In this document: positions 11,417 to 36,317 of the stretch, piece after piece
How the letters are laid out: each line of letters starts with the position of its first letter
How positions within the stretch are numbered: position 1 is the first letter of the stretch
Assembly: GCA_945881835.1 (NCBI GenBank)
Contig: CAMCVP010000008.1
Span: forward strand, 1-64,000
DNA: 64,000 nucleotides
Direction: 5' to 3'
From: Chryseobacterium gleum
Lineage (GTDB): Bacteria > Bacteroidota > Bacteroidia > Flavobacteriales_D > Sanyastnellaceae
The notes under the pieces: model-generated
The model's database searches: none
Seen by the model: the letters and a program-made list of their open reading frames with translations, nothing else
What the model was told of the DNA's origin: nothing
Position numbers and translations under genes: made by a program

Positions 11417-12415
11417 ATGTATTACAGCGACTATCTAAAACTGGGAGAAGTTCTTAACGCACAAGAACTCGAAAGCGACAAACAAGGTAAACACGCTCAC
11501 GACGAGATGTTGTTTATCGTTATTCATCAATCGTACGAATTGTGGTTCAAGCAGATTTTATTCGAAATGAAATCGGTGTACGACATTCTTGCGAAAGAGA
11601 ACATTAACGATAACAGTCCAGAGTTGCAAATCGCTGTAAACCGCATGCACCGCGTTACAGAGATCCTTCGCATTTTGGTCGACAAGATCAACATCTTGGA
11701 AACCATGTCGGCGCAAGACTTCTTAGACTTTCGCGATATGCTTCGTCCGGCAAGCGGATTTCAAAGCATGCAGTTCAAAGTTTTAGAAACGTTGTTGGGA
11801 TTGAAAGTTGAAGAGCGTCATGGACAAGAGTATTTCACTAGTCAATTACGCAGTGAAGACGCAAAGCAGATATACACCTTAGCGAAAGAAACTACGTTGT
11901 TGGAATTGGTGAACAACTGGTTAGAGCGCATGCCATTCTTCGAAGAGAAATATTGGGGCGAAGAAAAATTCTGTTCGCAGTACCGCGCGGCTTATGCCTC
12001 TTCACTCAGTGAAATGGAAATGCAAAACTTGAAAGCGTTCGATGAATTGTTCATTTCGAATGAACCCGTTGAAAACCGAAAGTTAAGCGCGAAAGCCAGA
12101 AGAGCTGGGCTCTTCATTATGTTGTATCGCGACTATCCGATTCTTCAGAATCCGTATAGAATTATCAACTCACTCTTAGACATTGACGAATTGTTGGCTA
12201 CTTGGAGATGGCGCCACATGAACATGGTTCACCGCATGATTGGCGGAAGAGCGGGTACAGGCGGAAGCACTGGAAAAGGATATTTAAGAGAAGCGGCTAT
12301 GAAGCATTATGTGTTTCAAGAGTTCGCTGAATTGACTTCATTCTTGGTTGAGCGAAGAAAATTCCCTGCTATCAGCGACGAGCTTGCAAAGAAACTCGGT
12401 TTCGAAAATGGATAG
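11417..12415 (+). CDS. kynA: tryptophan 2,3-dioxygenase
   Basis: The 332-aa protein matches haem-dependent tryptophan 2,3-dioxygenase throughout. It has the N-terminal DEMLFIVIHQSYELWFKQILFE block, the LRPASGFQSMQFK segment that shapes the substrate pocket, and the haem-ligand region WRWRHMNMVHRMIGGRAGTGGS with substrate-carboxylate residues. It opens L-tryptophan to N-formylkynurenine in the cytoplasm, the first step of the kynurenine pathway. No other kynurenine gene is next to it. The following hepT-like gene starts inside its last codons (8-nt overlap). It lies 33 bp after the CotH gene. Confidence 0.93.
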   Translation: MYYSDYLKLGEVLNAQELESDKQGKHAHDEMLFIVIHQSYELWFKQILFEMKSVYDILAKENINDNSPELQIAVNRMHRVTEILRILVDKINILETMSAQDFLDFRDMLRPASGFQSMQFKVLETLLGLKVEERHGQEYFTSQLRSEDAKQIYTLAKETTLLELVNNWLERMPFFEEKYWGEEKFCSQYRAAYASSLSEMEMQNLKAFDELFISNEPVENRKLSAKARRAGLFIMLYRDYPILQNPYRIINSLLDIDELLATWRWRHMNMVHRMIGGRAGTGGSTGKGYLREAAMKHYVFQEFAELTSFLVERRKFPAISDELAKKLGFENG

Positions 12416-12761
12416 TTATGTTCGCGATTTGCTCTCGGACATTGTTCGGTCGATTGATGAAATAAATGAGTTCTCGGCCGGACTTACCATTGAAGACTTC
12501 AAACAATACTTATCGAATAAAATGATGCGTCGAGCCATAGAGCGCGACCTCATTATTATTGGCGAGGCCATGCACGACATTGTGAAAGTCGATCACACGC
12601 GTGTTATGCGCATAAAAAATTCTCGACGCGTAATAGAATTAAGAAACGACGTCGTTCATTCTTACGACGATTTAGCCAACGAGAAAATCTGGAATTTTAT
12701 CTGGAAGGAGCTTCCTTATTTGCGGAAGGAAGTGGCGCATATTCTTGACCTTTATTACTAG
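12408..12761 (+). CDS. HepT-like HEPN ribonuclease toxin, orphan
   Basis: From the ATG at 12408 the protein is 117 aa, normal for HepT. It opens MDSYVRDLLSDIVRSIDEINEF, has RRAIERDLIIIGEAMHDI in the middle, and the catalytic R-x4-H-x-Y motif RNDVVHSY (R79, H84, Y86). In MntA/HepT pairs the Tyr is AMPylated by the antitoxin. Here no nucleotidyltransferase is adjacent; the only one in the window is the orphan mntA 8.4 kb away, whose own hepT is broken. The start overlaps the kynA stop by 8 nt, so translation may be coupled. All catalytic residues are present. Confidence 0.8.
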   Translation: MDSYVRDLLSDIVRSIDEINEFSAGLTIEDFKQYLSNKMMRRAIERDLIIIGEAMHDIVKVDHTRVMRIKNSRRVIELRNDVVHSYDDLANEKIWNFIWKELPYLRKEVAHILDLYY

Positions 12762-12770
12762 CATCGTAAA

Positions 12771-12919
12771 GAATGTTTTCAACGAATGCCTTTGGCGAAT
12801 GCTCCGCGAATGTCTTCGACTTTCTAAAAACAAAGTTCCAATTATGAAATAGGAATAAAATCTTCGATTTTCCAATTACGAAGTAGGCATAAAACCGAAG
12901 GTTTTCCAATAACGTAGTT
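12771..12919. repeat. mini-hairpin chain B (10 hairpins)
   Basis: The whole space between the convergent hepT-like and prmA genes is a chain of perfect hairpins with 3-nt loops. The first set, joined by GAAT linkers, is GTT-TTC-AAC, GCC-TTT-GGC, GC-TCC-GC and GTC-TTC-GAC. The second set, joined by CCAAT, GGAAT, CCAAT, GGCAT and CCAAT, is AAC-AAA-GTT, TAT-GAA-ATA, AAAATC-TTC-GATTTT, TAC-GAA-GTA, AAAACC-GAA-GGTTTT and AAC-GTA-GTT. Stems differ but remain paired. No reading frame is supported here. Confidence 0.8.
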
Positions 12920-12921
12920 CC

Positions 12922-13746
12922 CTATTTTCGAACTAAGTAAAGCATCGTCCACTCATCGCGAACGCGCGTCTCTTTCCATTCGAATGCGGAGAATGCTTCA
13001 AGTAACGCAGGGACGTCGTTTTCATAGAATCCGCTGAGCAACAAAGGTGCTCCAGACTTCGTGGCGTTTTCGTAATGCTTGGCTTGAGCCAAGAGAATAT
13101 TCCGATTGATGTTGGCAATAAAAACATCTGCCATCTTTCCTTCTAGTAAATCTTCAACGCCTAAAAGCGCTTCAATCTTCGAGCAGCTGTTACGCTCCAA
13201 GTTTTCAATGGCGTTCTCATACGCCCACTCGTCTATGTCAATGGCCCAAACTTTCTTCGCGCCGAGTTTCTCAGCAGCAATGGCCAACACAGCCGTTCCA
13301 CTGCCCATGTCAATGACTTCCTTGTCTTTCAAGTCGAGCTCGAACATTTTCTGAAGAACCAAATACGTTGTAGCATGATGTCCCGTACCAAAGCTCATCT
13401 TCGGCTCAATGATTAAATCAAGAACACCTTCCTTCGCTTCGTGAAAAGGGGCTCTAACGCGACAAAGATTATCTACGTCGATTGGATCGAATTGCGATTC
13501 CCACTCGGCGTTCCAGTTGATGTCCTCCATTTCTTTTTTCGAGAAATGAATGGTCACGTCTTCAATGGTTAATTCCAACAAAGCGTTTTGCAATTCTTCT
13601 GTATCGAATTGTGTTGGCACATAAGCCTCTACTCCACTTTCCGTTTCTTGAAAACTATCGAAAGCCAATTCGCTTAATGAAGCAATAACTAAATCGTTTC
13701 CCGGAATAAGCGGAGAAACTTCAAAGGTGTATACCGTGTATTGCAT
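12922..13746 (-). CDS. prmA: ribosomal protein L11 methyltransferase
   Basis: The 274-aa protein is a PrmA-type SAM-dependent methyltransferase. The N-terminal substrate-recognition domain (about 1-95) is followed by the PrmA signature MSFGTGHHATT (about 143-153) and SAM motif I in VIDMGSGTAVLAIAAEKLG. The catalytic-loop motif FIANINRN comes later. It trimethylates lysines and the N-terminus of ribosomal protein L11. It forms a TAATG one-base stop/start overlap with the upstream tpiA, so the two are one operon. The mini-hairpin chain follows its stop at once. Confidence 0.92.
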   Translation of the reverse strand: MQYTVYTFEVSPLIPGNDLVIASLSELAFDSFQETESGVEAYVPTQFDTEELQNALLELTIEDVTIHFSKKEMEDINWNAEWESQFDPIDVDNLCRVRAPFHEAKEGVLDLIIEPKMSFGTGHHATTYLVLQKMFELDLKDKEVIDMGSGTAVLAIAAEKLGAKKVWAIDIDEWAYENAIENLERNSCSKIEALLGVEDLLEGKMADVFIANINRNILLAQAKHYENATKSGAPLLLSGFYENDVPALLEAFSAFEWKETRVRDEWTMLYLVRK

Positions 13747-14480
13747 TAGGCGTTGTAGATAAATTCAAAGTCAGCAACCTTCAAAGAAGCGCCGCCGATA
13801 AGCCCTCCATCAACATCTTCACATGCCAACAAAGCCTGTGCATTCGCGGCGTTCATGCTTCCTCCGTATAAAATCTGAATGTCGTTTGCTACTTCTCCGA
13901 ATGTTGTTTTCAAGAACGAACGAATGTACGCATGCATCTCTTGTGCTTGTTCATTGCTAGCCGTAACGCCAGTTCCAATGGCCCAAACGGGTTCGTAAGC
14001 AATAACTATATTTTTCATTTGTGTTGAAGACAGATGTCCAATTACTTCTTCAATCTGCTTCGTCACCGTAGCGAAATGCAATTCGTTGTTGCGCTCTTCG
14101 AGGGTTTCGCCAATACAATAAATCGCAGTCAAATTATTGGCCAACAACTGATCTACTTTGCTCTTCAACAATTCTGAAGTTTCGTTGTGGTATTGTCTGC
14201 GCTCGCTGTGTCCAACCAAACTTCCCTTCACGCCTAACGAAGCCAACATGGCTGCAGAAATTTCTCCGGTGAATGCTCCTTTCTCGTGTGCGCTGCAATC
14301 TTGCGCGAACACCGACAATTGCGGATGTGTTGGGCACAATCCTGCCAGGTAACACGCGGGTACACAAACCGCCATTGATTTGTTGTTGGAAGGAAATTCG
14401 TTTACACTGTTGAATAACGATTTCGCCTCTTCCCAAGAGGTGTTCATTTTCCAGTTACCGGCGATGAGTTTTGAGCGCAT
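13746..14480 (-). CDS. tpiA: triosephosphate isomerase
   Basis: The 244-aa protein is a standard TpiA: GNWKMN at residues 8-13 (Lys11), the electrophilic His in LVGHSERR, the catalytic Glu in IVIAYEPVWAIGTG, and the phosphate-binding ILYGGSM and DGGLIGGASL. It interconverts dihydroxyacetone phosphate and glyceraldehyde 3-phosphate in glycolysis. It is the first gene of the tpiA-prmA unit. Upstream lies a 335-bp non-coding region with a hairpin chain, a structured motif and the terminator of the preceding gene. Length and residues are complete. Confidence 0.96.
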   Translation of the reverse strand: MRSKLIAGNWKMNTSWEEAKSLFNSVNEFPSNNKSMAVCVPACYLAGLCPTHPQLSVFAQDCSAHEKGAFTGEISAAMLASLGVKGSLVGHSERRQYHNETSELLKSKVDQLLANNLTAIYCIGETLEERNNELHFATVTKQIEEVIGHLSSTQMKNIVIAYEPVWAIGTGVTASNEQAQEMHAYIRSFLKTTFGEVANDIQILYGGSMNAANAQALLACEDVDGGLIGGASLKVADFEFIYNA

Positions 14481-14503: not shown

Positions 14504-14645
14504 GTCCGAAGGACGAATGTTGCAAAGCAACGAATGCCGGAGGCGAATGTTGCAGAGCAACGAATGTCTTCGACGTTTCGAATTACGTCGTAGGAATTAC
14601 GAAGTAGGAATAAAATCTTCGATTTTCCAATAACGTAGTTCAAAC
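14504..14645. repeat. mini-hairpin chain C (9 hairpins)
   Basis: Five hairpins joined by GAAT linkers come first: GTCC-GAA-GGAC, GTTGC-AAA-GCAAC, GCC-GGA-GGC, GTTGC-AGA-GCAAC and GTC-TTC-GAC. Four more follow: TAC-GTC-GTA, TAC-GAA-GTA, AAAATC-TTC-GATTTT and AAC-GTA-GTT, with linkers GGAAT, GGAAT, CCAAT and then CAAAC. The order of the two classes is the same as in chain B. It lies just upstream of tpiA and could form part of its leader. It leads directly into the CCGG-flanked motif at 14650. Confidence 0.8.
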
Positions 14646-14649
14646 TACC

Positions 14650-14705
14650 CCGGATAGCAGTGGAAAGCCTTTGAGCGAAGCGAGAAGCTTGGAACGAATA
14701 GCCGG
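14650..14705. other. candidate structured RNA/repeat element flanked by CCGG
   Basis: The 56-bp segment starts CCGGATAGCAGTGGAAAGC and ends GGAACGAATAGCCGG. The outer CCGG ends pair, AAGC (14665-14668) pairs with GCTT (14687-14690), and inside them GC-GAA-GC forms a small hairpin. I recall similar CCGGATAGCAGTGG...GAATAGCCGG sequences as a recurring intergenic element in Flavobacteria, possibly an Rfam Flavobacteria motif such as Flavo-1, but I cannot verify this here. The 14481-14815 gap holds only this, chain C and the terminator. Confidence 0.45.
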
Positions 14706-14728
14706 AAAAGGTTCGAAAAAAGAATTTG

Positions 14729-14815: not shown

Positions 14816-17800
14816 TTATTTCACTTGTAATTTCTGAACGAAGTTCGAATTTGAAGTGTTAACGTTGATTACATACATACCTTTTGCGAACGAGCTAACG
14901 TCGATTTTCTGCGTGTTCGTTGCCGTTTGGAAGTTTGCGATTTGCTTACCTGTGATGTCGAAGATTGTGATTTGAGCCACTGTACCTTCTTCCATGTTTG
15001 CGATTTGAAGTGTTACCATTTCAGTAGCTGGATTTGGGAAAAGAGACATCTCTTCTTCCACGAAAGCAACTTTTTCAGATTGAACTTCAGGCGTGTTCGC
15101 TAATTCCAAAGCACTTGATCCTGCAACAATCTTCAAGTTGGCGATAGCGCGTACTGGAGATGTTCCGCAAGCGTTAGTAGCAGTAACAGACATGGTGTAA
15201 CCTGTACCAATGATGTTTGTTGCATTAACGGTGATGGCGTTGTTACCTTGTCCAGTTGCAATGCTACCGAAGTTTGCAGCAACGGTCCAGTTGTAAGTCA
15301 TACCTGCAACGTTCACTACAGAGTAAGGAACTGCTGTTTGGTTTTGAGAAACAGTGCGAGTACCAGTGATTACGCTTGGAGTAAGTGGCATGTTCAAACC
15401 AATTGTTTTGGTCTTAGCAACGCTAACTCCACAACCGTTTGAAGCTGTAACCGAGACAACACCTGCAGCAGTGAAACCACTGTTGAATGTAATTGTAGCA
15501 ATGTTTGTTCCTTGTCCAGCCGTAACTGAAGCGCCTGCTGGAGCAGTCCAGTTGTACGAAGTAGCACCTGGCATAGTAGCAGAAGTGAATACAATCGCAT
15601 CGCCAGGACAAGCCTTACCAGTAGCAGATGTTAATGTAGCTGGAGTTGCAGGAGCCAAACGCTTCACTTGGAAGAATTTGTATGCGCTTGTTCCGCAATC
15701 ATTTGTTGCACGAACCTTCAAGTTTGAAGTAACAAATGTGTTGCTGAAAGAAACTGTGATTGTGTTTGTTCCTTGTCCGCTTACGATAGTCATTCCCGCT
15801 GGAGCAACCCACTCGTATGTTGTACCTGCAACTGCAGGAGTTGAGTAGGTAGTTGTGCCACCTGCTAAGAAGGCACAGGCGTATACTTCACCGGTTACAA
15901 TTGTTGGAATAGCAGCAATTGTTGTTTGAATGGTTAAGTTTAAAACGTCTGTAACGATACAACCATCGTTGTTAGTGGATTCATGTGTGTAAGTACCTGT
16001 TGAAGTATATGTTTGTCCGTTCCATTCGAAAGAACCACATGCCACTTCTGTTTGAGTTGTTCCTGGCGCTGTGCAAGGAGAAACTGAGAAAACAGAAAGG
16101 GTGCTACTTACTTCATTCGCAAGAATAACAATGTCTTGTCCGGTTGGAGAATCAGCTGCCTTGATGAAAATAATTCCTTCAGCACCTAGATCCGGACCGC
16201 TACCGTTCAATGTTCTGTTGTTTGCGTAACCTACGAAAATTGGAGCCGATGGATTTTCAATGTTGAAAATCATTACACCACCTACTCTCTCTAAAGAAAC
16301 GAAAGCGTATGGTCTTCCTGCAATAACAGCAGTTGTTACTCCTTCTGGCTCAGGACCTTTATCGTCACTTCTGTTTTTCAATGAAGCAGAACCAGTGGTG
16401 TTCGAAGCGTTGAAGAATGCAGAAGTTAAAGAAGAGTTTGAAGTGATTTGCTCAATCAAATCTTTCGAATCGAAAACCAAAGAACCTGTTGCTGCGTTGA
16501 AAATACTGAATGAACGTCCGCCCATTACATGAATTTCATCGTAGTCACCATCTCCGTCTGTATCACCTGAATATTTCAATCCACTTAATCTTCCTAAGAA
16601 TTTGTTGTTACGAAGAATGTTTGCATCTGGGAAAGCTGTTGCATCTAAGTTGTTGAATGTTGATGAGCTAATTCTGTTAGCATCGACAACGCTTCCGAAT
16701 TCTCTTGAATCTCCTTCGTTAGCTGTGAAAATAAGACCTGTTCCACCAACAGTTGCATAAGAGATTGCATCTGGCATGTAAACGCCTTTGATAGGAAGGT
16801 TACCCGTGATTAAAACAGAACCGCTTTGATCAGAAGCATCCATTCCATTTCCTGAACCATCAGCGTAGCTGATGTATCCTAATGGACGAAGGTCTTCGAT
16901 TGTGTTCGTTGTTAAATTAATGACAAGCATGGCGTTGTTCTCTTGAAGATCAACATATGCACGTGTGTTATCGTCAGAAACTGCGATATACTCTGGCTCT
17001 AAGTCTTGAGCAACTGAAGCGCTTGTGCTGAAGATACGTATACCCGCAGCGCGAAGTGTAGCTTCTTGTCCGTTGTAAGCTGTTAAAGAGATTTGAGTAG
17101 CGTTAGCTTCCGTAAGGTTTGCAACACCACCAGTGATATCTACGATTGTAACAGAACCTTCTGGATCTGAAGAATAAGAAGAGTTAGGCTCGCCTTCGTT
17201 AGCGGTAAGAACTTTTGTATAGTCCTTCGAGAAGCAAATCATATCTGGCATTGCACCAGCAGGAACTTGATTAACATATGTACCGTTTGAATCGAAGAAA
17301 ACGATGAAGCCGTTTGATTGTGGATTCACATTTTCAATAGCGCAAGCAACGATACCGTTGTGAGCAACAACTGAGTTAATGTTTCCGTATGGTGCCATGC
17401 TAATTGAACTGATCAACGTTGGCGCTGATGGATTTGAGAAGTTTACGATATCTAGTTTACCAGCGATGCTGTTCGCAATGTACAAGCGTTGTGTTGATGC
17501 ATCGTGAGAAACAATCTCTGCTGAATTTGTGCCGGCAGCTCCGTTAGAGAAACTTGAAAGCAAGTTCATGTTTAACTGATTAGATGCTACTGGAGCAACA
17601 TAATCGTTGTCTTTGATAAAGATGATTCTATAATTGTTGGTAGCGTCTACGTTAGCGTAATCTGCACTTGCTATTTTCACAACAATACGCTCAGCTTTTT
17701 CAGCTAAATTATCGTCGGTGATTGTAATCGTGTTGTTAAATACACCATTCGAGTTAGCAGGAATAACGAAAGAGTTGGTCCAAGTATAGTCTGAACCTTC

Positions 17801-18832
17801 TGTAGCATCGCTGTATACCGATAAAGAGAATTGAACAGTTGTGCTCATTGTAGTAGCGCTCGCCATTGTAACAGGGATAGTTACAGTTCCCGCGTTTTCA
17901 TTCACGAAAGTGAAGTTCGAAGCTGAAGCAATAGACACTGCTCCCAACGCGCAGTTCAAAGTAGTTGATCCATCGCAGTTTTCGTCAACGTCATTGTAGC
18001 ACTGCTCGCTAACTCCTGGATTAACAGTAGAAGCAGCATCGTTACAATCTGCAGATAAAAGTGCATAGCCTACAGGAAGAGAACAAGCTGAAGTTGTTGT
18101 ACCTGCAACACCGTAACCGTCTCCGTCTGCATCTAAGTAATACGTAACAGCATAAGTACATGCATTTGAAGAAACAGTCGCGTTTGCGTCGTAGTTACAT
18201 GCCAATGCATCTAAACAACCTGTAACAGGGAATCCAGCCAAAATTGCATCGCCGGGAGAACCAACGTTTGCCGCAACGTTTGCGCTAGTGAAGGTCAATT
18301 GTCCAGCGTTGTTTCCTAAAGAGCTTAATAAACCCGCATTGTTTGTTCCAACATTGTTTGTGTCGAAAGAACCATCTGCGGTGTATCCCCAGAAGAAGCT
18401 GTAATTAGCTGTAGCAGCGCCAAAAGAGACGCGAGTAACTTCAGCTCCAGTAGCGTCAAAAATAATTACGCCATCTCCGTTTGAAGATAATCCAATTCCA
18501 GAACCTGAATAATTACCAACTTGAACTGTTTGTGCAAGACCCCAGAAAGTTCTAAAGTCTGCAGCAAATGTTGCCGAACCCGACTCTCCGAAAATTACAC
18601 TTTCTCCAGATGAAATAGAAGAAATGCCATTTAATGCAACAGAATTCCCATAAGCAAATGAACTGTCGTCAATTTTGTAACCTGTTAAATCAACAGCGGT
18701 TGAGCCAAGATTTGTTATTTCAATCCAATCGGCTGTACCACCTGAAGACATTGCCTCGGTGACTCTCAACTGGGCAAAAGAAGCGCTTGATAACAAAAGT
18801 AGCGCTCCCAAAAACAAGGAGATTTTTTTCAT
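14816..18832 (-). CDS. large secreted multidomain protein (LTD, Calx-beta, choice-of-anchor I, T9SS)
   Basis: The 1338-aa protein has a signal peptide (MKKISLFLGALLLLSSASFAQ). The lamin-tail domain (TEAMSSGGTADWIEITNLG, about 20-190) is followed by a MopE-like Asp-rich metal motif (YYLDADGDGYG...DCNDAASTVNPG, about 225-290). A Calx-beta domain (about 295-410) precedes a choice-of-anchor I beta-propeller-like region (about 415-930, with LTANEGEP and PEGVTTAVIAGRPYAFVSLERVGG). Three PKD-like repeats and a type A T9SS tail (SLFPNPATEMVTL, FAKGMYVINVNTS) end it. Family members are large, calcium-rich exoproteins of unknown activity; some are annotated as phosphatase-like. It is monocistronic with its own terminator. 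Confidence 0.85.
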   Translation of the reverse strand: MKKISLFLGALLLLSSASFAQLRVTEAMSSGGTADWIEITNLGSTAVDLTGYKIDDSSFAYGNSVALNGISSISSGESVIFGESGSATFAADFRTFWGLAQTVQVGNYSGSGIGLSSNGDGVIIFDATGAEVTRVSFGAATANYSFFWGYTADGSFDTNNVGTNNAGLLSSLGNNAGQLTFTSANVAANVGSPGDAILAGFPVTGCLDALACNYDANATVSSNACTYAVTYYLDADGDGYGVAGTTTSACSLPVGYALLSADCNDAASTVNPGVSEQCYNDVDENCDGSTTLNCALGAVSIASASNFTFVNENAGTVTIPVTMASATTMSTTVQFSLSVYSDATEGSDYTWTNSFVIPANSNGVFNNTITITDDNLAEKAERIVVKIASADYANVDATNNYRIIFIKDNDYVAPVASNQLNMNLLSSFSNGAAGTNSAEIVSHDASTQRLYIANSIAGKLDIVNFSNPSAPTLISSISMAPYGNINSVVAHNGIVACAIENVNPQSNGFIVFFDSNGTYVNQVPAGAMPDMICFSKDYTKVLTANEGEPNSSYSSDPEGSVTIVDITGGVANLTEANATQISLTAYNGQEATLRAAGIRIFSTSASVAQDLEPEYIAVSDDNTRAYVDLQENNAMLVINLTTNTIEDLRPLGYISYADGSGNGMDASDQSGSVLITGNLPIKGVYMPDAISYATVGGTGLIFTANEGDSREFGSVVDANRISSSTFNNLDATAFPDANILRNNKFLGRLSGLKYSGDTDGDGDYDEIHVMGGRSFSIFNAATGSLVFDSKDLIEQITSNSSLTSAFFNASNTTGSASLKNRSDDKGPEPEGVTTAVIAGRPYAFVSLERVGGVMIFNIENPSAPIFVGYANNRTLNGSGPDLGAEGIIFIKAADSPTGQDIVILANEVSSTLSVFSVSPCTAPGTTQTEVACGSFEWNGQTYTSTGTYTHESTNNDGCIVTDVLNLTIQTTIAAIPTIVTGEVYACAFLAGGTTTYSTPAVAGTTYEWVAPAGMTIVSGQGTNTITVSFSNTFVTSNLKVRATNDCGTSAYKFFQVKRLAPATPATLTSATGKACPGDAIVFTSATMPGATSYNWTAPAGASVTAGQGTNIATITFNSGFTAAGVVSVTASNGCGVSVAKTKTIGLNMPLTPSVITGTRTVSQNQTAVPYSVVNVAGMTYNWTVAANFGSIATGQGNNAITVNATNIIGTGYTMSVTATNACGTSPVRAIANLKIVAGSSALELANTPEVQSEKVAFVEEEMSLFPNPATEMVTLQIANMEEGTVAQITIFDITGKQIANFQTATNTQKIDVSSFAKGMYVINVNTSNSNFVQKLQVK

Positions 18833-19010
18833 TTAATTTAGGTTTTAGTGAACGCAAAATTCGACTCGAACAGCTAACTGTCATATTTCTAATACATTAC
18901 GCTTTCGTAAACAAGTTAGCGTTGAATGTTACGGGAATGTTTTTTTTGAAATCAAGGAAATTGAACTACACGAAACATTACGACTCTAATATTCCTCTTA
19001 AATTCGCGCT

Positions 19011-20423
19011 ATGCTATTCAGCTCTTTTGATTTTCTAATTTTCTTTCCAGCAGTAACGCTGGCATTCTTCCTGCTGCCTGAAAGATTTAAGAATACATGG
19101 CTTCTTTTATCGAGTTGCTTTTTTTACATGTTCCTTATTCCGTACTACATTATTATTCTGCTTGGAACAATTAGTACAGACTTCATTGCTGGAAAATTTA
19201 TTTACAAGGAAAATAATCCGCGTCGAAAAAAACAACTTCTAACCATAAGCCTGATCATTAACATTGGAATTCTGTTTTTTTTCAAGTACTACAATTTCTT
19301 CGCAGGCGAATTTGCTCAACTTTTCGGAACTCAAAACACAGACGATTTTCTTTTTCAAGTAGTGCTTCCAATTGGCTTGTCTTTTCACACATTTCAATCG
19401 ATGTCATACACCATAGAAATCTACAGAGGGCATTGCATTCCAGAAAAAAACTACTCCCGCTTCATGTTGTTCGTCATGTTCTACCCACAGCTTGTTGCTG
19501 GTCCAATTGAACGTCCTCAGAATTTGCTGCATCAATTCAATGAAAAGAAAACATTCGATTACGACCGAGTGAAATCGGGACTCTGGCTAATGCTCATTGG
19601 ATTCTTTAAAAAGATTGTTGTTGCCGATCGCTTGTCCATACTTGTAGATTCTGTTTATAGCAATCCGATTGGATTTGCGGGAGTGCCTACAATGCTTGCG
19701 ATTCTATTCTTCACGATTCAAATTTATTGCGATTTCAGCGGCTACACAGACATTGCGCGAGGCGCTGCTCGTGTCATGGGATTCGAGCTTATGGAGAACT
19801 TCCGTCTACCTTATTTCTCGAAGTCTATCGGAGAGTTTTGGTCGAGGTGGCACATCTCGCTTTCAAGTTGGTTCAAAGACTACGTATACATTCCCTTGGG
19901 TGGAAATAAAGTCGACCGTTGGAAGTTAATGCGAAATGTATTAATCGTTTTTCTCTTATCCGGTCTTTGGCATGGCGCGAATTGGACTTTTATTATCTGG
20001 GGAGCTGCGCACGGCGTGGTGGTTATCCTTGAGCGATTGACCAACTTTTCGAAGACTCGATTTTCAAACTATTTTGGAATGGCTTACACTTTTATTTTAG
20101 TTTCAATCCTTTGGGTGTTTTTCCGCGCCGAAAATATTTCACAAGCCTTTGAGATTTTAGAGAATGCTATTCATTTTCCAAAAGCCAGTTTAGGCATTCA
20201 ATTCCGTGGTTTAGGACTGAATGCAACTGACCTCGTCTTGGCTGGAGTTTTCGCTGGACTCATGATAACCCATGATATTCTGGTGAACAAGATGAATGTA
20301 TACGATTGGATTCAAAAAAGAAACACTGCATTGCGATGGTCTATTTACTACCTACTTGTGATTATTGTAGTATTCTACTCGGTTAACGACGGAACAAAAA
20401 ACTTCATTTATTTCCAGTTTTAA
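19011..20423 (+). CDS. MBOAT-family O-acyltransferase (AlgI-like)
   Basis: The 470-aa integral membrane protein is an MBOAT acyltransferase. It starts with the typical MLFSSFDFLIFFPAVTLAFFLLP, shows about ten hydrophobic segments, and carries the conserved MVAGPIERPQ-like segment (QLVAGPIERPQNLL), FWSRWHISLS, and the catalytic His in SGLWHGANWTF (H321). In AlgI/DltB-type systems this protein passes acetyl groups across the membrane to a polysaccharide. It is followed one base later by an SGNH protein, the usual partner. It opens the first EPS block, so the likely job is O-acetylation of that polymer. Confidence 0.9.
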   Translation: MLFSSFDFLIFFPAVTLAFFLLPERFKNTWLLLSSCFFYMFLIPYYIIILLGTISTDFIAGKFIYKENNPRRKKQLLTISLIINIGILFFFKYYNFFAGEFAQLFGTQNTDDFLFQVVLPIGLSFHTFQSMSYTIEIYRGHCIPEKNYSRFMLFVMFYPQLVAGPIERPQNLLHQFNEKKTFDYDRVKSGLWLMLIGFFKKIVVADRLSILVDSVYSNPIGFAGVPTMLAILFFTIQIYCDFSGYTDIARGAARVMGFELMENFRLPYFSKSIGEFWSRWHISLSSWFKDYVYIPLGGNKVDRWKLMRNVLIVFLLSGLWHGANWTFIIWGAAHGVVVILERLTNFSKTRFSNYFGMAYTFILVSILWVFFRAENISQAFEILENAIHFPKASLGIQFRGLGLNATDLVLAGVFAGLMITHDILVNKMNVYDWIQKRNTALRWSIYYLLVIIVVFYSVNDGTKNFIYFQF

Positions 20424-20424
20424 A

Positions 20425-21339
20425 ATGAAAAAATTCATCGTTAGACTCATTGTTTTTTCATTGCCATTTGTTGCCTGGTTTAGCCTTGTTGCCTATGTTG
20501 ATCCTTTCAATTTTTTTCAAAAAAAATCTGAAAAAGAACTCGCGATAAGAGAAACGAAAATTCGTCCATTAAACAGCATGTTGTTCAACATGATTAAATA
20601 TAAAAACAATCCTACCGAAGTTGTTTTTATCGGAGACTCGCGAACCCGTGTTATTTCAGACTCCTTGTATTCCGAAATTACACACGAGCCAACCTTCAAC
20701 CTTTATTCAAACAAAGCGAAATTGAATGAAATGATTGATCTTTTTTGGTTCGCTGAGGGATTTAAAAAAATTAAAAAAGTATACTTCGGTATCAATTTCA
20801 ATCTATTTAATACATACGCTTTCGGATCACGCTCAAAGTCGAACAGTGAGCTTTGTTCGTCTCCTTTCAAATACATTACAAACAGAGCAGTTGGAGAGGC
20901 AACTGGTATTCTATTAAATATTCTTTCCTTACCCTCAGATAAGAAACCAAATCAAGTTGAATTTTGGAAGTTCAATCTGGAAACAAAAGCCAACGATTTT
21001 TATTCGAAGTATGAATTTCCTGAGGAGGCTGTTGAACAACTGAAAGATGTTTCCGTTTTCTGCAAAGAACATAATATTGAATTAACATTCGTAATTGTCC
21101 CGCACGTTGTTTCCATGCGAAAAAAAGTACTTTTTTACAATTTAAGCGAAGAAGAATTGAAATTCAAACGAACGATTTCCTCAATTGCAAAGACAGTCGA
21201 TTATGATTATGAAAATGCTGTAACTATTGATACTACTAATTTTGGAGACCCTATTCATTTCAAAAAGCATATCGGTGAACTCATTGCAAAAGAACTAGCC
21301 ACTCAGCAATTCAACATAGGGGTAACTGTTAGACAATGA
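20425..21339 (+). CDS. SGNH-like accessory protein of the MBOAT acyltransferase
   Basis: The 304-aa protein has one N-terminal membrane anchor (about 5-25) and an extracytoplasmic SGNH-type domain. Block I reads FIGDSRT with Ser72, and the end has DPIHFKKH with Asp275 and His278, the D-x-x-H of SGNH hydrolases/acetyltransferases. Like AlgX, AlgJ or DltD, it probably receives acyl groups from the MBOAT partner encoded one base upstream and transfers them to the polysaccharide in the periplasm. Similarity outside these motifs is low. The substrate is unknown. Confidence 0.7.
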   Translation: MKKFIVRLIVFSLPFVAWFSLVAYVDPFNFFQKKSEKELAIRETKIRPLNSMLFNMIKYKNNPTEVVFIGDSRTRVISDSLYSEITHEPTFNLYSNKAKLNEMIDLFWFAEGFKKIKKVYFGINFNLFNTYAFGSRSKSNSELCSSPFKYITNRAVGEATGILLNILSLPSDKKPNQVEFWKFNLETKANDFYSKYEFPEEAVEQLKDVSVFCKEHNIELTFVIVPHVVSMRKKVLFYNLSEEELKFKRTISSIAKTVDYDYENAVTIDTTNFGDPIHFKKHIGELIAKELATQQFNIGVTVRQ

Positions 21340-21421
21340 ATTTTCGACATTTTTCAATTAGTTATAAATCTTTAACAAAGGAAAACCCATAGTCGTGTTA
21401 TTTTAGCTCCAAATTTGAATC

Positions 21422-22852
21422 ATGAAAAAAGCCTTTATACTCATTTGTTTGTTCGCAGCAACCAATTCTATATTTTCTCAAGAGAATAATAAAAGTAATG
21501 CTGTAAAAAAAGACCGCTCATTTTCTATCGGTACGGGCACATCCATTTCATTGGGTGATCTTTCAAATTATTATTTCTTTCCAAAAATTAGCGAGTTCGG
21601 ATCGGCATCCCGCACTGGGCAAATGCTTGGCTACAACGTAGCCAATGCATACGGCAAATTAGGTTATTCAATTAATTTCCAATCGGGAGGATTAAAGGGA
21701 TTCCATGTTGCTGAAGGCTCTGACACCATAAATTTTCAAGGAAGCTATACAACCTTGACGTATAATCTTACTGCAAATTCAAACACTCTGTTGAATTTGA
21801 AAAAGAATCCGAAACTTACCTTAAATGGAAGTGTAGGTATTGGTTTATCGACATATCGCTCATTTAGCTACGCTCAACCAAATGCTGTTCGTGAGTTTCA
21901 ATCTTTTTACGGATACGAATCACACACTTCTACGAATGCGAATGGTTTTGAAAGCACTGAGCTGCATACCGCTGCCAAAAAAGCAACCCTTGTCATTCCA
22001 ATTCAATTCCAATTGAATTACAACTTATCTGATTTATCAAGCATACAGTTCACTGTAAACAGAACATCATTCTTTTCAGATGATATCGATGCTGGTTCTG
22101 TTGTAGGATTCAACAATGACCGCGTTTTATATTTAGGAGTTGGTCTTACTCAGCGTTTCAAATCAACCCCTTCCTCAAACAAGTTTTCATTCGGGAAACT
22201 TAAAAGTTTGCCCCTTTACATCGGAATAGAGGGTGGAACTTTCGCTGTTGTTGGCGATATTATGCAAAACTTCAACGGTCCGTCAACCATTTCATCGCTC
22301 AAACTTTTGAACGGTAAAAACGGAACTTCTTGCGGAATGAACATTCAAAAATACCTAGGTGAAAAATCTTCTTTAACGTTTAACTACAATCTAGCTAAAG
22401 CTTCTGGTTCAAGAACACTTGCATTTGCCGACACATTAAGTCAACAATTCAACTTAGATGCTGCTTCTTTAAGCGTGAGATATGGTTACGACTTGAAGCT
22501 CTCTAAAAACGAATCAGCGAAATTGATTGTTACACCGTTCTTCGGAATTGGAGTAACCGGATTTAGAAGCAAATCATACTTCACAAACGACAATACATTA
22601 ATCGATAATTACAGCTATACCGAGAACGAAGAATTCTCTTCTTTTGCTTTTGCTTCGAAATCGTTCACGCAAAAAATCGTTATCCCAGCAGGAGTTTCAT
22701 TGGGATTGCCTGTAGGAAACAAATTGAAGCTTTCTGCTTCATTCAGCAACAACCATTATTTGTCAGATGCATTGGATGGTTTTGTTAGTGAAAACAGCAG
22801 AAAAGATCGCTCTTATCAATTCAACATCGGTGCTTCATTCAAATTGAACTAA
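21422..22852 (+). CDS. predicted outer-membrane beta-barrel protein, unknown function
   Basis: The 476-aa protein has a signal peptide (MKKAFILICLFAATNSIFSQ). After it come alternating amphipathic strands rich in Ser, Asn, Gly and aromatic residues, ending in YQFNIGASFKLN, as in outer-membrane barrels. The two halves begin alike (SFSIGTGTSISLGD and PLYIGIEGGTFAVVGD), so it may be two barrel-like halves. I do not recognise the family. It sits between the O-acetylation pair and the flippase in the EPS block, separated by 82 bp upstream and 31 bp downstream. A role in polymer export or attachment is a guess from position. Confidence 0.6.
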   Translation: MKKAFILICLFAATNSIFSQENNKSNAVKKDRSFSIGTGTSISLGDLSNYYFFPKISEFGSASRTGQMLGYNVANAYGKLGYSINFQSGGLKGFHVAEGSDTINFQGSYTTLTYNLTANSNTLLNLKKNPKLTLNGSVGIGLSTYRSFSYAQPNAVREFQSFYGYESHTSTNANGFESTELHTAAKKATLVIPIQFQLNYNLSDLSSIQFTVNRTSFFSDDIDAGSVVGFNNDRVLYLGVGLTQRFKSTPSSNKFSFGKLKSLPLYIGIEGGTFAVVGDIMQNFNGPSTISSLKLLNGKNGTSCGMNIQKYLGEKSSLTFNYNLAKASGSRTLAFADTLSQQFNLDAASLSVRYGYDLKLSKNESAKLIVTPFFGIGVTGFRSKSYFTNDNTLIDNYSYTENEEFSSFAFASKSFTQKIVIPAGVSLGLPVGNKLKLSASFSNNHYLSDALDGFVSENSRKDRSYQFNIGASFKLN

Positions 22853-22883
22853 GAACACGCCTTTTTTAGTGCATCTTTAGTTC

Positions 22884-24176
22884 ATGAATGATAGTAAAGC
22901 CAAACGTAAGGGCCTTCTCTACGAATTACTAGCTACAGCAGCGAGCTCATTTTTTATTCGAGCGATAGGAATTGGCTCAACGTATCTTCTCTCTATTCTC
23001 ATTATTCGTGAATATAGCATTGCCTCGTGGGGAGAGATAACGCTTCTGTTCTCTATTATACAGGTAGCAGCGCTTTTTCTTCGATCTGGTATGGACAAAG
23101 AGACCATGCTCAAGTTCAGCAGCCAAAGTCCGAATGCGAAGAGTTATTATGACAAGTCATTCCGTCAAATAGGCCTTCACTCGCTTATAATACTTGGTGT
23201 GGTTGTGATGTATTATTTTCTATTTGGAAACCTATTGCTCCAAGGCTGGAACATTTTTTCCATTTGGCTCGGCGCTTCTGCCTTGAGTATTCTCTTACTT
23301 CATTCAGAAGTCTTAAGGGGACTCAAAAAAATCGGATGGTTCAGCTTTTTTGAAAAAGGAGGAATCTTTACTGTAACAGCAATCATTGCGCTCGTTACCT
23401 TTTACATAGCGAAACAAAGTTCTTTCAATCTAAATCAATTGGTTATTGCGATCGTTATTCTATGTTGTGTCGCCATTTTTGTTGCAAAGAAAACACTTAA
23501 CAAATTTCCGAACGACATTCGAGGTACAGAGAAATTTCTCGACTCACCCTTGAAATTAGGCTATCCGCTTATGCTTTCAGGAGCAGGATTCATGATTATG
23601 AATTGGGCAGACCTCTTTATTATTGGTGCTTACCAAGACGACAGTGCCGTAGGATTATTTAATGTTTGCTCAAGAGTTGCTAGCCTAAGTGCATTTGCGT
23701 TGCTTGCTGTGAATACGGCTAACGGACCAAAAATCGCCGAGCTATTTCAGAAAAACGAATCGAAAAAGCTAGAGAAGTACATTCAACATTCGAATAAAAT
23801 TACGGCTGGGATATCGATCCTCGTGGGAATTGTTGTCTTCTTATTCCCGAAAACAATTTTGGGTATTTTCGGAATATACTCGCCCAGTTCAACAATAATA
23901 TACAGCCTATTCATTCTAGTAATCGGAGAAATCATTAACGCTTCGTGCGGTTCAATAGGTCTTTTAATGCAAGCAACTGGTTCGAGGAAACAATTTCAAC
24001 GGATCGTTTTCATTGCCACTGCCTTTAATATTTTAATTGGAATATTGCTCGTGCCGAAATTTGGTATTCTTGGCGGGGCCATTGCAAACGCCATAGCCAC
24101 AGCCATTTGGAATGTTTCCTCGTTTATATATGCCAAGAAAAAACTTGGTATCGGACTCATCTATAAAAAACTATGA
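22884..24176 (+). CDS. polysaccharide flippase (Wzx/MATE-like)
   Basis: The 430-aa protein shows twelve or more hydrophobic segments in the pattern of the polysaccharide transport family. The N-terminal helix pair (SSFFIRAIGIGSTYLLSILII) and the later KLGYPLMLSGAGFMIMNWADLFIIGAYQ segment are typical of Wzx-like flippases. It would move lipid-linked repeat units across the inner membrane. Its stop overlaps the next gene (a sulfotransferase) by 4 nt, so the following run of genes is one operon. Confidence 0.85.
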   Translation: MNDSKAKRKGLLYELLATAASSFFIRAIGIGSTYLLSILIIREYSIASWGEITLLFSIIQVAALFLRSGMDKETMLKFSSQSPNAKSYYDKSFRQIGLHSLIILGVVVMYYFLFGNLLLQGWNIFSIWLGASALSILLLHSEVLRGLKKIGWFSFFEKGGIFTVTAIIALVTFYIAKQSSFNLNQLVIAIVILCCVAIFVAKKTLNKFPNDIRGTEKFLDSPLKLGYPLMLSGAGFMIMNWADLFIIGAYQDDSAVGLFNVCSRVASLSAFALLAVNTANGPKIAELFQKNESKKLEKYIQHSNKITAGISILVGIVVFLFPKTILGIFGIYSPSSTIIYSLFILVIGEIINASCGSIGLLMQATGSRKQFQRIVFIATAFNILIGILLVPKFGILGGAIANAIATAIWNVSSFIYAKKKLGIGLIYKKL

Positions 24177-25102
24177 TTGTTCAATTCGAAAACAAATCGG
24201 TTACCCTACCCGATTTCTTGCTTATTGGTGCTGCGAAAAGCGGCACCACTTCCCTATTCGAATATTTGAATCAACACGCGGAAGTATTCGTTCCCGCAAA
24301 AAAAGAATTGTTCTATTTTTCGTTCGGGAACAAACAACCCAAATACACAAATACGAATTTCCTTTCTATGTTAACGTGGAAAAGGACAGATTACATTAAC
24401 GAGTTTCAGCATACAAAAGGGAAAATTAGTGGGGAGTGTTCTACCTCATATCTTTACACGAGTTCAGAAACCATTGCTAACATTCAAGAGCTATATGGTG
24501 AACAAGCCCGAGATTTGAAAATAATTGTCATACTCAGAAACCCTGTCGACCGAGCATTTTCTCATTACACGCATTTGGTTCGAAACGGTTTGGAAAACTT
24601 ATCGTTTGAAGAAGCCATCCTTCCTGAAAATATTTCAAGAAGAAAAAATGAGATTTGGGGATTCGACTACATCGAATATGGGAATTACGGCACACAACTT
24701 TCCCACTTTTTGAGTGCTTTTCCAAAGACAAAGGTTTTTCTTTTTGAAGATCTGAAAGCTCCAGAGAAACTGCTTAACGATTTACAGTCGTTTTTAGAAC
24801 TTCAAACCCCTTTCACAGCAAACAAAATAGAATCCTTCAATCCGAGTGGCATTCCCAAGCACAAACGCACATTAAGTCTTTTGCGTAATCGGAAGATTAA
24901 GCGCGTATTGAAGTGGTTCACCCCGAAATCACTATCATTCAAACTCAAGCGCATGCGAGATCAGTGGATGGCCAAAACCATGACGCGCATACAAATGAAA
25001 CCGGAAACAAAACAAATGTTAATAGCGCAGTACTCCGAGGAAATCGATAAATTAGCGCAACTTATACAACGCCCACTTAATCACTGGAAAGAATGGCATT
25101 AA
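24173..25102 (+). CDS. sulfotransferase 1 of the EPS block
   Basis: The 309-aa protein is a PAPS-dependent sulfotransferase. The 5'-phosphosulfate loop is GAAKSGTTS (residues 19-27) and the 3'-phosphate motif VILRNPVDRAFSHY lies at about 118-131. A GECSTSYL segment and the C-terminal IDKLAQLIQRPLNHWK also fit the heparan-sulfate NDST-like group. It would sulfate sugars of the polysaccharide in the cytoplasm. It overlaps both neighbours (flippase by 4 nt, next sulfotransferase by 10 nt). PAPS would come from the cysC/cysD/cysN genes at 47.9-52 kb. Confidence 0.9.
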   Translation: MIVQFENKSVTLPDFLLIGAAKSGTTSLFEYLNQHAEVFVPAKKELFYFSFGNKQPKYTNTNFLSMLTWKRTDYINEFQHTKGKISGECSTSYLYTSSETIANIQELYGEQARDLKIIVILRNPVDRAFSHYTHLVRNGLENLSFEEAILPENISRRKNEIWGFDYIEYGNYGTQLSHFLSAFPKTKVFLFEDLKAPEKLLNDLQSFLELQTPFTANKIESFNPSGIPKHKRTLSLLRNRKIKRVLKWFTPKSLSFKLKRMRDQWMAKTMTRIQMKPETKQMLIAQYSEEIDKLAQLIQRPLNHWKEWH

Positions 25103-26010
25103 CATTTTTAGTCAACGGTTTTTTCAGAAGTGGAACGACTTTTCTTTTTGATGAAATAAGAGAGCAATTTCCCGATCGTAAGTGCTTTTACGAACCTTGC
25201 TACCCTAAGCTAGGACTGGTTGTTCAGAATTTCAAAACAAAACAAGGGCCCGATCAATTACATCAGTCTTCGTTGTGGAATGAATATGCACAATTGACTT
25301 CTTCTGAATTTGAAGACTTGTTAAGAAACCACCCGAATACAGACAATAAAGGCATAGCAAACGATGATGCCCTTTATTCTTATTTGAATCAATATCATAA
25401 GTTTGACTTCCCTTGCATATTGCAATCAAACCGATATCACCGCTATTTACATGCAATTCAATCGGAATACAATATTCCTGTGGTTCATATTATACGAAAT
25501 CCAATCGCTGTATACCATTCACTCGTTAAATCTTATTCCCAGCGCACTTCCGGAATAAAAAAAACAATTCGTTCTGCCATATTTCCATTTACTTCAAAAA
25601 ATTATTTCGGACAAGAATCTGAACTCAGGCAGAACATTGAAAAGTTAGGACTTCCACATGTGTTCTACGACAATTGGAAATTTCGATATTTCAATAGAAT
25701 ATCGTTTAAAGAGAAAGTGTATATCAACTGGATTCTAGCGAATTACGCCGTTCTTGTGAACAATAACTCTATCTTGATTCTCTTTTATGAGAACATTATT
25801 TCCAATCCCCATCACGAATCTGGAAGACTATCTTCATTCATTCAAATGCCCTTTGAAATTCGAAACGCAAAAAAAACACGCGAAAGTGTTTTTAGCGAAA
25901 AAGAATACTTCGACTTTCAAAACGTAGTGAACAAATTCAAATTGAATGACATGTGGCAAATTATTTTGAAAGAAATGAATTCTCAGAACGTTAACTATTT
26001 TCATCCTTGA
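25093..26010 (+). CDS. sulfotransferase-like protein 2 of the EPS block
   Basis: This 305-aa protein is more divergent than the others. It keeps the phosphosulfate loop NGFFRSGTTF (about 8-17) and a 3'-phosphate motif VVHIIRNPIAVYHSLVKSYS (about 131-150), but the rest is not close to its neighbour. It is probably a PAPS-dependent sulfotransferase acting on another position or sugar. It overlaps sulfotransferase 1 by 10 nt and the next gene by 4 nt (TTGA). No acceptor can be named. Confidence 0.8.
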   Translation: MALTFLVNGFFRSGTTFLFDEIREQFPDRKCFYEPCYPKLGLVVQNFKTKQGPDQLHQSSLWNEYAQLTSSEFEDLLRNHPNTDNKGIANDDALYSYLNQYHKFDFPCILQSNRYHRYLHAIQSEYNIPVVHIIRNPIAVYHSLVKSYSQRTSGIKKTIRSAIFPFTSKNYFGQESELRQNIEKLGLPHVFYDNWKFRYFNRISFKEKVYINWILANYAVLVNNNSILILFYENIISNPHHESGRLSSFIQMPFEIRNAKKTRESVFSEKEYFDFQNVVNKFKLNDMWQIILKEMNSQNVNYFHP

Positions 26011-27281
26011 ATCAACTAATAAAAAATAGCTTATTCACTTTTGGGTTATCCATGCTATTTATCATTGGATTCCGATTGGCGCTGCATACGCCTTTGAATT
26101 CAATTGTTTATTCTGTTGAAGCGATATGCATTTTGACGTTTTTTATTGTTTTCTTATACCACGTTATCCTCGAACTCTATTCAAAACAAAAGTTAGACAA
26201 CTTCCTTTTGTTGAATATTTTCATGTGCTTGTTTCCATTGATTGGCAGCCTTAGTGCTTTCAGGGAATTTGGACAACCCGTTTATCACGGTCTTATTCAT
26301 CAACGAGATTTCTATTTGTTCCTTATTGGAATCGTAATCTCTTTTCAAATTAAATCTTTGGTTGAACTCAAGTACATTGAAAGGTCTTTTGTGCTCATCT
26401 GTTGGTTAAGTCTCTTCATATTTATAATAACTCCGCTTTTTCTTGAACCTGAGAAATATTTATCGACAGACTTTGTAGGATTCAATCCGTTAAAAGGAGG
26501 TTATATCTACAAATTCGTAATGACCTTTATGGTGTTCGGATTTCTTTATTATGGAATATTGTTTTTCAGAAACAAACGTATTGTAGATGGCCTGTGTTCC
26601 ACTCCTTTCCTGTATTATTTGTTCTTTGTTCGTCAGGATAGATCCATAATCTTACTTTTCGGCCTCACATTTATCATTTTCTTCCTGAAGAGAATTTTTC
26701 CTCTGAATAAAATAAAGTACGGTTTGGTTATCGTGTTGTTTGCTTTCTCTACCGGACTATTTCTTTCGTTTGTGGAAACGAATTATTTCGAAAAGTTTTC
26801 GAACATTATTACAGCTTTTTCAGGAGAAGAAACCAACGAGGCCGCCACGAATGTTCGAACAAAAGAAGTTGCAATTGCATTACCTTATATAGCCAAAAAC
26901 CCCATTTTCGGAAACGGTGAATTAAGTAATCAATGGAATGGCGGTTACCAAAAACTTTTCGGTTACTTCTTCCCTTCTGACATTGGTTTCATAGGAGAAC
27001 TTTACGTTTTTGGAATTGTAGGAACCTTGTTACTGCATGTCCAATTTTTATTCGGGGCCTACTACGTTAGAAAAACGAATGATAAAAAGAACAATCACTT
27101 TTTCATTGTACTCTGTTATTTTTTACTCTATACATTTCTTGATTCATTGACTGCAGGACAAACAATCTTCTATGCTGGAAACAGTATGATTGTGATCTCT
27201 TTACTCTATTCGTACTACAAGCTAAATAGCAATTCGCCCAATTCAGAAACTACAATAACTTCCGATGAGAAATTTGCTTAA
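26007..27281 (+). CDS. O-antigen/EPS polymerase-like membrane protein (Wzy)
   Basis: The 424-aa protein has about eleven membrane spans and a larger hydrophilic loop at about 265-320 (FSGEETNEAATNVRTKEVAIALPYIAKNP). This is the layout of Wzy/O-antigen ligase family proteins, where NVRTKEVAIALPYIAKNPIFGNG resembles the periplasmic loop of polymerases. The start is a TTG overlapping the previous stop (TTGA); an ATG at residue 16 is the alternative. It would polymerise repeat units in the periplasm. Family assignment rests on topology and context. Confidence 0.75.
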   Translation: MNQLIKNSLFTFGLSMLFIIGFRLALHTPLNSIVYSVEAICILTFFIVFLYHVILELYSKQKLDNFLLLNIFMCLFPLIGSLSAFREFGQPVYHGLIHQRDFYLFLIGIVISFQIKSLVELKYIERSFVLICWLSLFIFIITPLFLEPEKYLSTDFVGFNPLKGGYIYKFVMTFMVFGFLYYGILFFRNKRIVDGLCSTPFLYYLFFVRQDRSIILLFGLTFIIFFLKRIFPLNKIKYGLVIVLFAFSTGLFLSFVETNYFEKFSNIITAFSGEETNEAATNVRTKEVAIALPYIAKNPIFGNGELSNQWNGGYQKLFGYFFPSDIGFIGELYVFGIVGTLLLHVQFLFGAYYVRKTNDKKNNHFFIVLCYFLLYTFLDSLTAGQTIFYAGNSMIVISLLYSYYKLNSNSPNSETTITSDEKFA

Positions 27282-28563: not shown

Positions 28564-28574
28564 TTATCCATTCA

Positions 28575-29576: not shown

Positions 29577-29578
29577 GT

Positions 29579-36093: not shown

Positions 36094-36108
36094 GGAAATT
36101 ATTTTGAA

Positions 36109-36116
36109 CAAAGTTA
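36109..36116 (-). promoter_or_regulatory. -7 box candidate for the Ig-repeat protein gene
   Basis: The minus strand reads TAACTTTG, an exact TANNTTTG match 15 bp before the chosen ATG at 36093. This would give a very short leader; no clear -33 box at about 20 nt spacing is seen. Confidence 0.4.
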
Positions 36117-36317
36117 GAACAGTTCAATCAGACCTAAGCACCAAAGTCTGATGATAAGAATTTAATAAAATTTGCATTCTCATCTTCACATTATGACGCC
36201 AATATGAATTAAATGTTAAGAGAACGTGACCTAAAATTATAACATATCCTTAATGCGCAAGATGTGGCTAAAAAGGAACCCTACTATAATTTTACACGCC
36301 AAATAATATTCCTTTTT

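Follow-up and report, generated by a model that had tools for sequence, protein, structure and literature searches.

Intergenic arrays of tiny perfect hairpins joined by constant linkers in a bacterium from a lake and in most sister species

The genomes of a lake bacterium and of most of its sister species carry intergenic strings of tiny perfect hairpins, each with a 3-nt loop and each separated from the next by a fixed short linker. That these arrays of hairpin words form a family found through the genome and most of the genus is well supported, and they are repeats recognised by shape more than by sequence, as shape and linkers persist while the hairpin sequences change. Most bacterial repeat families have been found by sequence consensus; here neighbours share linker and shape and not the stem, and similar sequence-free repeat families may, as this case suggests, be overlooked elsewhere. 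At one slot the words have been exchanged over a span in which the adjacent gene changed by only about 5–6%. The arrays thereby offer a natural and rapidly evolving system in which to ask if DNA hairpins are made and mended by template switching, which has been proposed to cause compensatory change.

The array beside tpiA and its relatives

In the window, the whole 64,000-nt stretch of DNA that was analysed, an array of nine hairpins occupies positions 14504–14640 beside the triosephosphate isomerase gene tpiA (Table 1), with the first hairpin 23 nt from the tpiA start codon (14480). A sequence-only reading had described nine perfect mini-hairpins with 3-nt loops, and on re-reading all nine stems do pair perfectly. 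The linkers that it named are likewise in place, GAAT at four joints, GGAAT at two and CCAAT at one; however, the fifth and sixth hairpins are joined by the irregular GTTTCGAAT and not by GAAT, and CAAAC, also listed as a linker, stands after the ninth hairpin, joins no tenth and leads directly into a match to the Flavo-1 RNA motif. No Rfam family matches the array proper at its gathering score; that of RF01705 is reached by 14643–14712 only. The last word of the type A run, GTCTTCGAC, is a frequent terminal word of such runs and is found at 104 places in the genome with up to two mismatches, compared to 17 for the reversed pattern.

Table 1. Coordinates of arrays and neighbouring features (window positions unless a locus is named)
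Feature	Position	Strand	Detail
tpiA (triosephosphate isomerase)	13746..14480	-	
Type A run	14504..14574	+	five hairpins, GAAT linkers x4
Hairpin 1	14504..14514	+	GTCC-GAA-GGAC
Hairpin 2	14519..14531	+	GTTGC-AAA-GCAAC
Hairpin 3	14536..14544	+	GCC-GGA-GGC
Hairpin 4	14549..14561	+	GTTGC-AGA-GCAAC
Hairpin 5	14566..14574	+	GTC-TTC-GAC
Irregular joint, type A to type B run	14575..14583	+	GTTTCGAAT
Type B run	14584..14640	+	four hairpins, linkers GGAAT, GGAAT, CCAAT
Hairpin 6	14584..14592	+	TAC-GTC-GTA
Hairpin 7	14598..14606	+	TAC-GAA-GTA
Hairpin 8	14612..14626	+	AAAATC-TTC-GATTTT
Hairpin 9	14632..14640	+	AAC-GTA-GTT
Flavo-1 RNA motif (RF01705), directly after array	14643..14712	+	52.7 bits, cut-off 42
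Type IX-secreted protein gene, far side of array	14816..18832	-	
Second array, type A run, GAAT-joined	12775..12820	+	GTTTTCAAC, GCCTTTGGC, GCTCCGC (2-bp stem), GTCTTCGAC; read from the sequence
Second array, type B run	12829..12919	+	six perfect hairpins; linkers in order CCAAT, GGAAT, CCAAT, GGCAT, CCAAT
IS200-like Y1 transposase genes, arrays nearby	L105 3194-3673; L124 1420-1860		
Loci of IS3-like ends	L047, L057, L121, L041, L056, L115, L118, L122		

The 142 nt of the array region hold 35 base pairs. Shuffling the segment 2000 times gave a maximum of 23, and shuffling the 64-kb window 100 times gave a maximum of 33 and a mean of 25.9. Consecutive hairpins each followed by an identical 4-nt linker number four in the window and at most two in 200 window shuffles; when linkers are left free (any 3–6 nt), a chain of at least five is reached by 3 of 60 window shuffles, so five alone is not rare. 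Free-linker chains are thus insufficient by themselves, and a chance origin is ruled out by the fixed linker together with the copies elsewhere. The sequence-only reading would have been abandoned had shuffled DNA yielded as many such hairpins or had the chain been absent elsewhere and not conserved; shuffles fall short once the linker is fixed, and chains recur through the genome and most of the genus.

The pattern search of the genome and its relatives that this reading had called for returned abundant copies. A 251-nt query has 62 matches in the organism's own genome, and a type B pattern allowing one mismatch is found there at 66 places, against none for its reversed control; in the eight congeners the same pattern occurs at 1 to 68 places, with one reversed match in G003 and none in the others. 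The single type B match belongs to G007, the most distant congener among those with a full-length tpiA match (66% identity). When the array and Flavo-1 were used together to query 60 genomes, matches were returned in the own genome, the eight congeners and 2 of 51 others (G011 and G030); among the matches listed, those of G011, G030 (at least 4 of 5) and G007 are essentially to the Flavo-1 part. A family-wide search with a multi-dialect stretch gave, outside the genus, matches mainly to its conserved-gene part and a few other pieces in G014, G030 and G036.

A sequence-blind scan, in which successive 3-nt-loop hairpins had only to share one linker (at least three hairpins and two stems), gave 74 chains of at least three hairpins and 33 of at least four in 41 stretches of the own genome (336,571 bases), which were picked for arrays so that the 74 chains are no genome-wide density; ten shuffles of these stretches gave 0–1 and 0, respectively. 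The 49 congener loci hold 93 real chains and the 62 loci of other genera (291,205 bases) one real chain of three and none of four, after one artefact from runs of N was excluded from each total (94 and 2). No chain was found in six G007 loci (17,441 bases) or one G002 locus (3,248 bases). In viral contigs, two long exact words had no match, and the seven matches to two looser patterns are single words or fragments in stretches that by eye seem to be coding; a viral origin was rejected on these grounds.

The linkers fall into dialects (GAAT, GGAAT, TCAA, ATGA, GAGG and others, or their complements), within which words of about 7–15 nt with stems of 2–7 bp run head to tail. About 75 different stems were counted. 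The clearest string, at L045 2928–3045, has eight hairpins with eight different stems, every linker being TCAA, while some type B runs are true tandem repeats, such as TACTGCGTA repeated four times in L050. The claim that structure is kept while stems vary and linkers stay constant is supported through the genome and most of the genus, with linkers constant per dialect. A 2.6-kb stretch, L116 2100–4700, clusters TCT, CA/TG, ATGA and type B dialects with some GAAT words, and includes two nearly identical TCAA-type arrays in inverted orientation.

Pairing is seen as well in segments chosen by linker alone. In segments delimited by GAAT or GAGG and unselected for pairing, the outer three bases pair in 136 of 764, where 16.5 are expected from re-dealt arms, and in type B-delimited segments in 135 of 378, where 21.5 are expected; reversed or permuted linkers give no pairing excess (5/169, 2/150 and 0/57). 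Distinct GAAT-delimited segments of 9, 11 or 13 nt are fully paired in 89 of 387 cases, compared to 1/51 for the control linker TAAG, 0/84 for AACT and 0/34 for AGTA (11 and 13 nt only). Among 186 distinct fully paired words the loop is closed by C-G in 160 and is GNA or TNC in 96, whereas 236 other 3-nt-loop hairpins with stems of at least 4 bp (window 16001–62000) have 37 and 35, respectively. The array loops are often C-GNA-G on one strand, an unusually stable type of DNA mini-hairpin, and the word GCTTCGC reads on the opposite strand as exactly GCGAAGC. Mini-hairpins of DNA with a GNA loop and a G-C stem are described as unusually stable, GCGAAGC melting near 78 °C (PMC4686876). The match between loop bias and stable DNA triloop is a correlation that points to the DNA level, at which the arrays probably act and change.

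Position relative to genes and mobile elements

In the fetched stretches of the own genome, 64 clusters of type A or B words lie mainly outside genes, apart from the two arrays in one gene described below and a few clusters that overlap open frames; the L109 cluster, whose open-frame overlap was examined, is intergenic. A strict strand orientation to genes was tested and is absent: on the 5' flank, type A arrays have 18 stop-codon and 17 start-codon sides (35 scored) and type B arrays 17 and 11 (28 scored), counts that exclude clusters under open frames, clusters with words on both strands and sides with no called gene, and that use rough longest-open-frame calls; these overlooked, for example, the HepT-like gene next to the 12775 array. 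In distance, 12 of the 18 type A arrays beside a stop codon lie within 2–23 nt of it (taking the distance to the first word that has a linker at each end), 16 of the 17 beside a start codon keep at least 26 nt, and several convergent gaps contain little but array. The earlier suggestion of a leader RNA for tpiA was rejected because the arrays are intergenic, stand in either orientation and adjoin many other genes. Upstream of many arrays, for example in the L058 slot beside tpiA, the interval from the gene to the first word contains a purine-rich repeat, GTTAAGAGAAGGTAAGAGAGGGGAAG, some 10 nt long.

Flavo-1 occupies the same intergenic slots next to the arrays and is a separate conserved motif, the arrays lying outside its model. 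Five copies in the genome exceed the cut-off (window 14643–14712 and contigs C1, C6, C11 and C26 of G000, the own genome), all within tens of bases of an array and four of them following a type B run. We know of no function for this RNA. In the transcriptome of a fish pathogen, Flavo-1 hits are reported on either transcript strand (PMC9723704).

Arrays are also found within a coding sequence. A gene for an Alg9-like mannosyltransferase (L044 2140–3750, G000:C3) contains two in-frame arrays, with linkers ATTC and CCTC. Their translations are rich in Ser, Pro, Ala and Arg and fall between apparent membrane segments, and the first array lies within the Pfam match. No ortholog of this two-array gene was present in any fetched locus, so there is no empty site, and a search of solved structures with the protein returned nothing at E up to 1. 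The two arrays presumably arose by insertion.

An IS3-like element with an rve domain (129.7 of 160 bits with the NCBIfam IS3 model) joins type B words at four left and five readable right ends, a sixth right end lying at the end of a contig; these ends were located by exact 18-nt patterns in stretches picked for arrays. The junctions all fall close to one position within the type B sequence TACGAAGTA/TATGAAATA. Comparison of copies, no single insertion having been found with both ends, suggests a possible target duplication of 2–3 nt.

Breaks in gene order are more frequent at array gaps, at 22 of 26 compared to 9 of 18 other gaps (p 0.02 per gap); counted by gap and species with stricter anchors and gap lengths, the figures are 34/45 and 13/25 (p 0.06), and in the first count 32 of 43 array votes and 37 of 91 others. 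These counts exclude undetermined votes and one-word gaps (five broken votes in the first count, then six broken votes and five gaps). The excess is weak and suggestive, in stretches picked for arrays. Beyond the tpiA array there is a species-specific region of about 20 kb: window 18900–38800 has no counterpart at E 1e-30 in eight congeners, some of them incomplete, except for a 443-nt piece in G007, and a 435-nt piece of it lies elsewhere in the own genome.

Turnover between sister species and possible mechanisms

Comparison of the tpiA slot across relatives, as the sequence-only reading had advised, revealed arrays of the same grammar with different words in three sister species, G004, G006 and G008, whose tpiA genes have 93.6–94.8% nucleotide identity; in G008 the linker is GAGG. 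The order of the first stems is common to G004 and G006, with loops that differ. The gene beyond the array is different in each of the three sisters and from that of the window, similarity being confined to the secretion/sorting tail. By eye, a 344-aa frame beside the G004 array (L058) resembles a 364-aa frame of G006 (L060) that lies farther from the array, with another gene in between, as though that gene had entered on the array side.

At the second array (slot 12762–12921), G004 holds a closely similar array in which one pair has changed on both sides (AAAACC/GGTTTT vs AAATCC/GGATTT), G001 has a type A run shortly past the tryptophan dioxygenase gene, and in G005 and G008 one type B word or its remnant is left. 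The HepT-like gene of this region (window 12348–12761) is present in G000 and G004, with only its first bases in G005 and G008. In slots of contig C11, runs are replaced by other runs between species, and one of these slots has twelve perfect AAC..GTT words in G000 and mixed words in G004 and G006. Judged by eye, linkers look constant.

In 19 orthologous word pairs from four slots, matched by eye and excluding 2-bp stems, 2-nt loops and words with no clear partner, 11 of 57 loop bases and 6 of 146 stem bases have changed, so stems are more constrained than loops; of four changed base pairs, two changed on both sides and two on one. On a longer time scale whole words are replaced. The proposal that the arrays grow by copying or insertion of hairpins fits this turnover as well as the pair of in-frame arrays, but the comparisons turned up no insertion that could be set against an empty site.

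An account to which we give roughly even credence is that these are satellite-like arrays of DNA palindromes, reshuffled at their linkers and kept paired by fold-back template switching together with selection. During replication or repair, words in single-stranded DNA would fold into mini-hairpins; the polymerase may slip or switch template at the short constant linkers, by which whole words would be duplicated, deleted or swapped; and fold-back copying of one arm onto the other would restore perfect pairing after mutation, so that stem sequences could change over time with their pairing intact. Stems and linkers may in addition be under weak selection, and the arrays would be tolerated spacers, targeted by the IS3-like element and often the site of gene-order differences between species. 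Template switching is described as creating and maintaining perfect hairpins (PMC8794818), and a mutational route to perfect hairpins is also described in PMC7202029 and PMC8604942. Slippage and template switching are consistent with the exchange of whole words, with linkers that stay constant and arms that pair perfectly, and with the DNA-type loops; the comparison was made at the level of sister species, at which no single event of either kind was caught. Template switching between arms should produce loop inversions, and the lack of a clear excess of stems seen with both a loop and its inverse argues against it (GAAT 13 vs 8.6 shuffled, type B 5 vs 5.0, TCAA 0 vs 0, ATGA 1 vs 1.8). Neither is linker constancy explained by template switching alone, and selection or an enzyme is needed. 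The predicted folding also speaks against the account: on both strands, as DNA and as RNA, the minimum-energy fold of the window array consists of larger nested pairings, and not of the nine separate hairpins (z -3.8 and -2.9 for DNA). A bolder and rather unlikely reading is that a genus-specific process writes short perfect palindromes between constant short tags of several dialects, sometimes in frame within genes, and so keeps rebuilding intergenic DNA into strings of new hairpins; this would be a new repeat class whose definition is geometric and not sequence-based.

It is unlikely that the arrays are instead RNA elements at mRNA 3' ends, in which strings of hairpins terminate transcription or shield the message under selection on RNA structure. 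The closeness of stop-side type A arrays to the stop codon and the convergent gaps made almost wholly of array would fit such elements, and on either strand the predicted RNA fold of the window array surpasses every one of 200 shuffles (z -5.1 and -4.8). However, 17 of the 35 scorable type A arrays face a start codon on the 5' side, no terminator-like site overlaps either window array, species exchange whole words and linkers, and the loop bias fits a stable DNA triloop.

REP- or REPIN-like palindromes could be moved by an IS200/IS605-type (Y1) transposase that reads the hairpin and an adjacent tetranucleotide, which is an improbable explanation here in spite of the shared plan of tag and stem-loop. 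The right end of IS608 uses GAAT and TCAA as its guide and cleavage tetranucleotides. Two Y1 transposase genes, whose proteins both pass the NCBIfam IS200/IS605 model, are located beside palindromes and each within a few hundred bases of an array, and the arrays are insertion-sequence targets, as REPs are. On the other hand, a Y1 gene was found in four and not found in five of the nine genus genomes (G002, G005 and G008 being only 71–85% complete), the latter including G003, which is 96% complete and has 48 type B matches; as Y1 presence does not track arrays among the nine, this transposase was rejected as the sole motor. The NCBIfam REP-transposase model gives 23 bits of 80 for one gene and leaves the other unreported. 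A RAYT gene is reported always to lie between two inverted REPs (PMC2817692), whereas the L105 gene is flanked by a different repeat, CCCCCAG...CTGGGGG, and the L124 gene by other palindromes.

A dedicated enzyme that adds or rewrites words, with the constant linker as its recognition tag, appears quite improbable: linkers remain constant beside wholly different stems within each dialect, as in the TCAA string of L045, and arrays of different dialects lie side by side, but no candidate gene came to light in the stretches analysed, and in none of the compared slots did a new word stand opposite an empty site. That the arrays are binding sites for a structure-specific nucleoid or repair protein is very improbable, since although shape is conserved where sequence is not and placement is mostly intergenic, species differ at a single slot in how many words they have and in the linker.

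Relation to known repeat classes

The sequence-only reading knew of no named repeat class of this kind, and a literature search, mostly without subscription papers, indeed found no such array class; the nearest known kind is the tagged REP, which likewise sets a short unpaired tag next to a stem-loop (PMC3733652). The GTAG/CGTC-tagged REPs are described there as high-copy extragenic stem-loops with the tag on one side, with loops of 2–3 nt in many families, complementary stem changes, clusters and occasional intragenic copies, and REP sequences are known targets of insertion sequences (PMC1525189). The arrays are also mainly extragenic and in many copies. They differ in that stem sequences vary even between units of a single array and that the units follow one another head to tail across a fixed linker: GAAT, GAGG, TCAA, ATGA, GGAAT/CCAAT and others take the place of an unpaired GTAG or CGTC, words of about 7–15 nt take the place of 20–40 bp palindromes in families of stem and loop sequence, and stems have 2–7 bp compared to 6–13 in GTAG REPs (PMC3733652). 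BIMEs are mosaic clusters in which palindromic units of alternating orientation are linked by joining motifs; the arrays are mosaics of words and linkers, with runs head to tail within a dialect. Their layout is not that of CRISPR arrays, which have constant repeats of about 30 bp and unique spacers, the constant part here being 2–5 nt and the variable part palindromic, and they are not simple tandem repeats, as the stems of adjacent words differ. The cyanobacterial small dispersed repeats of Elhai et al. (2008) are reportedly very small, dispersed and mobile, and are said to be sequence-defined elements as opposed to arrays of differing stems. The LIMPs of an algal mitochondrion are described as intergenic palindromes confined to one lineage and linked to rearrangements, in which the loop is constant and the stem varies in length; unlike the arrays, they are single long hairpins and not strings, with stems that repeat one pentamer (PMC4524435). 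The repeats around the L105 transposase gene, in which CCCCCAG...CTGGGGG is accompanied by GCTCGCAAAGCGAGC, resemble a REPIN system of their own.
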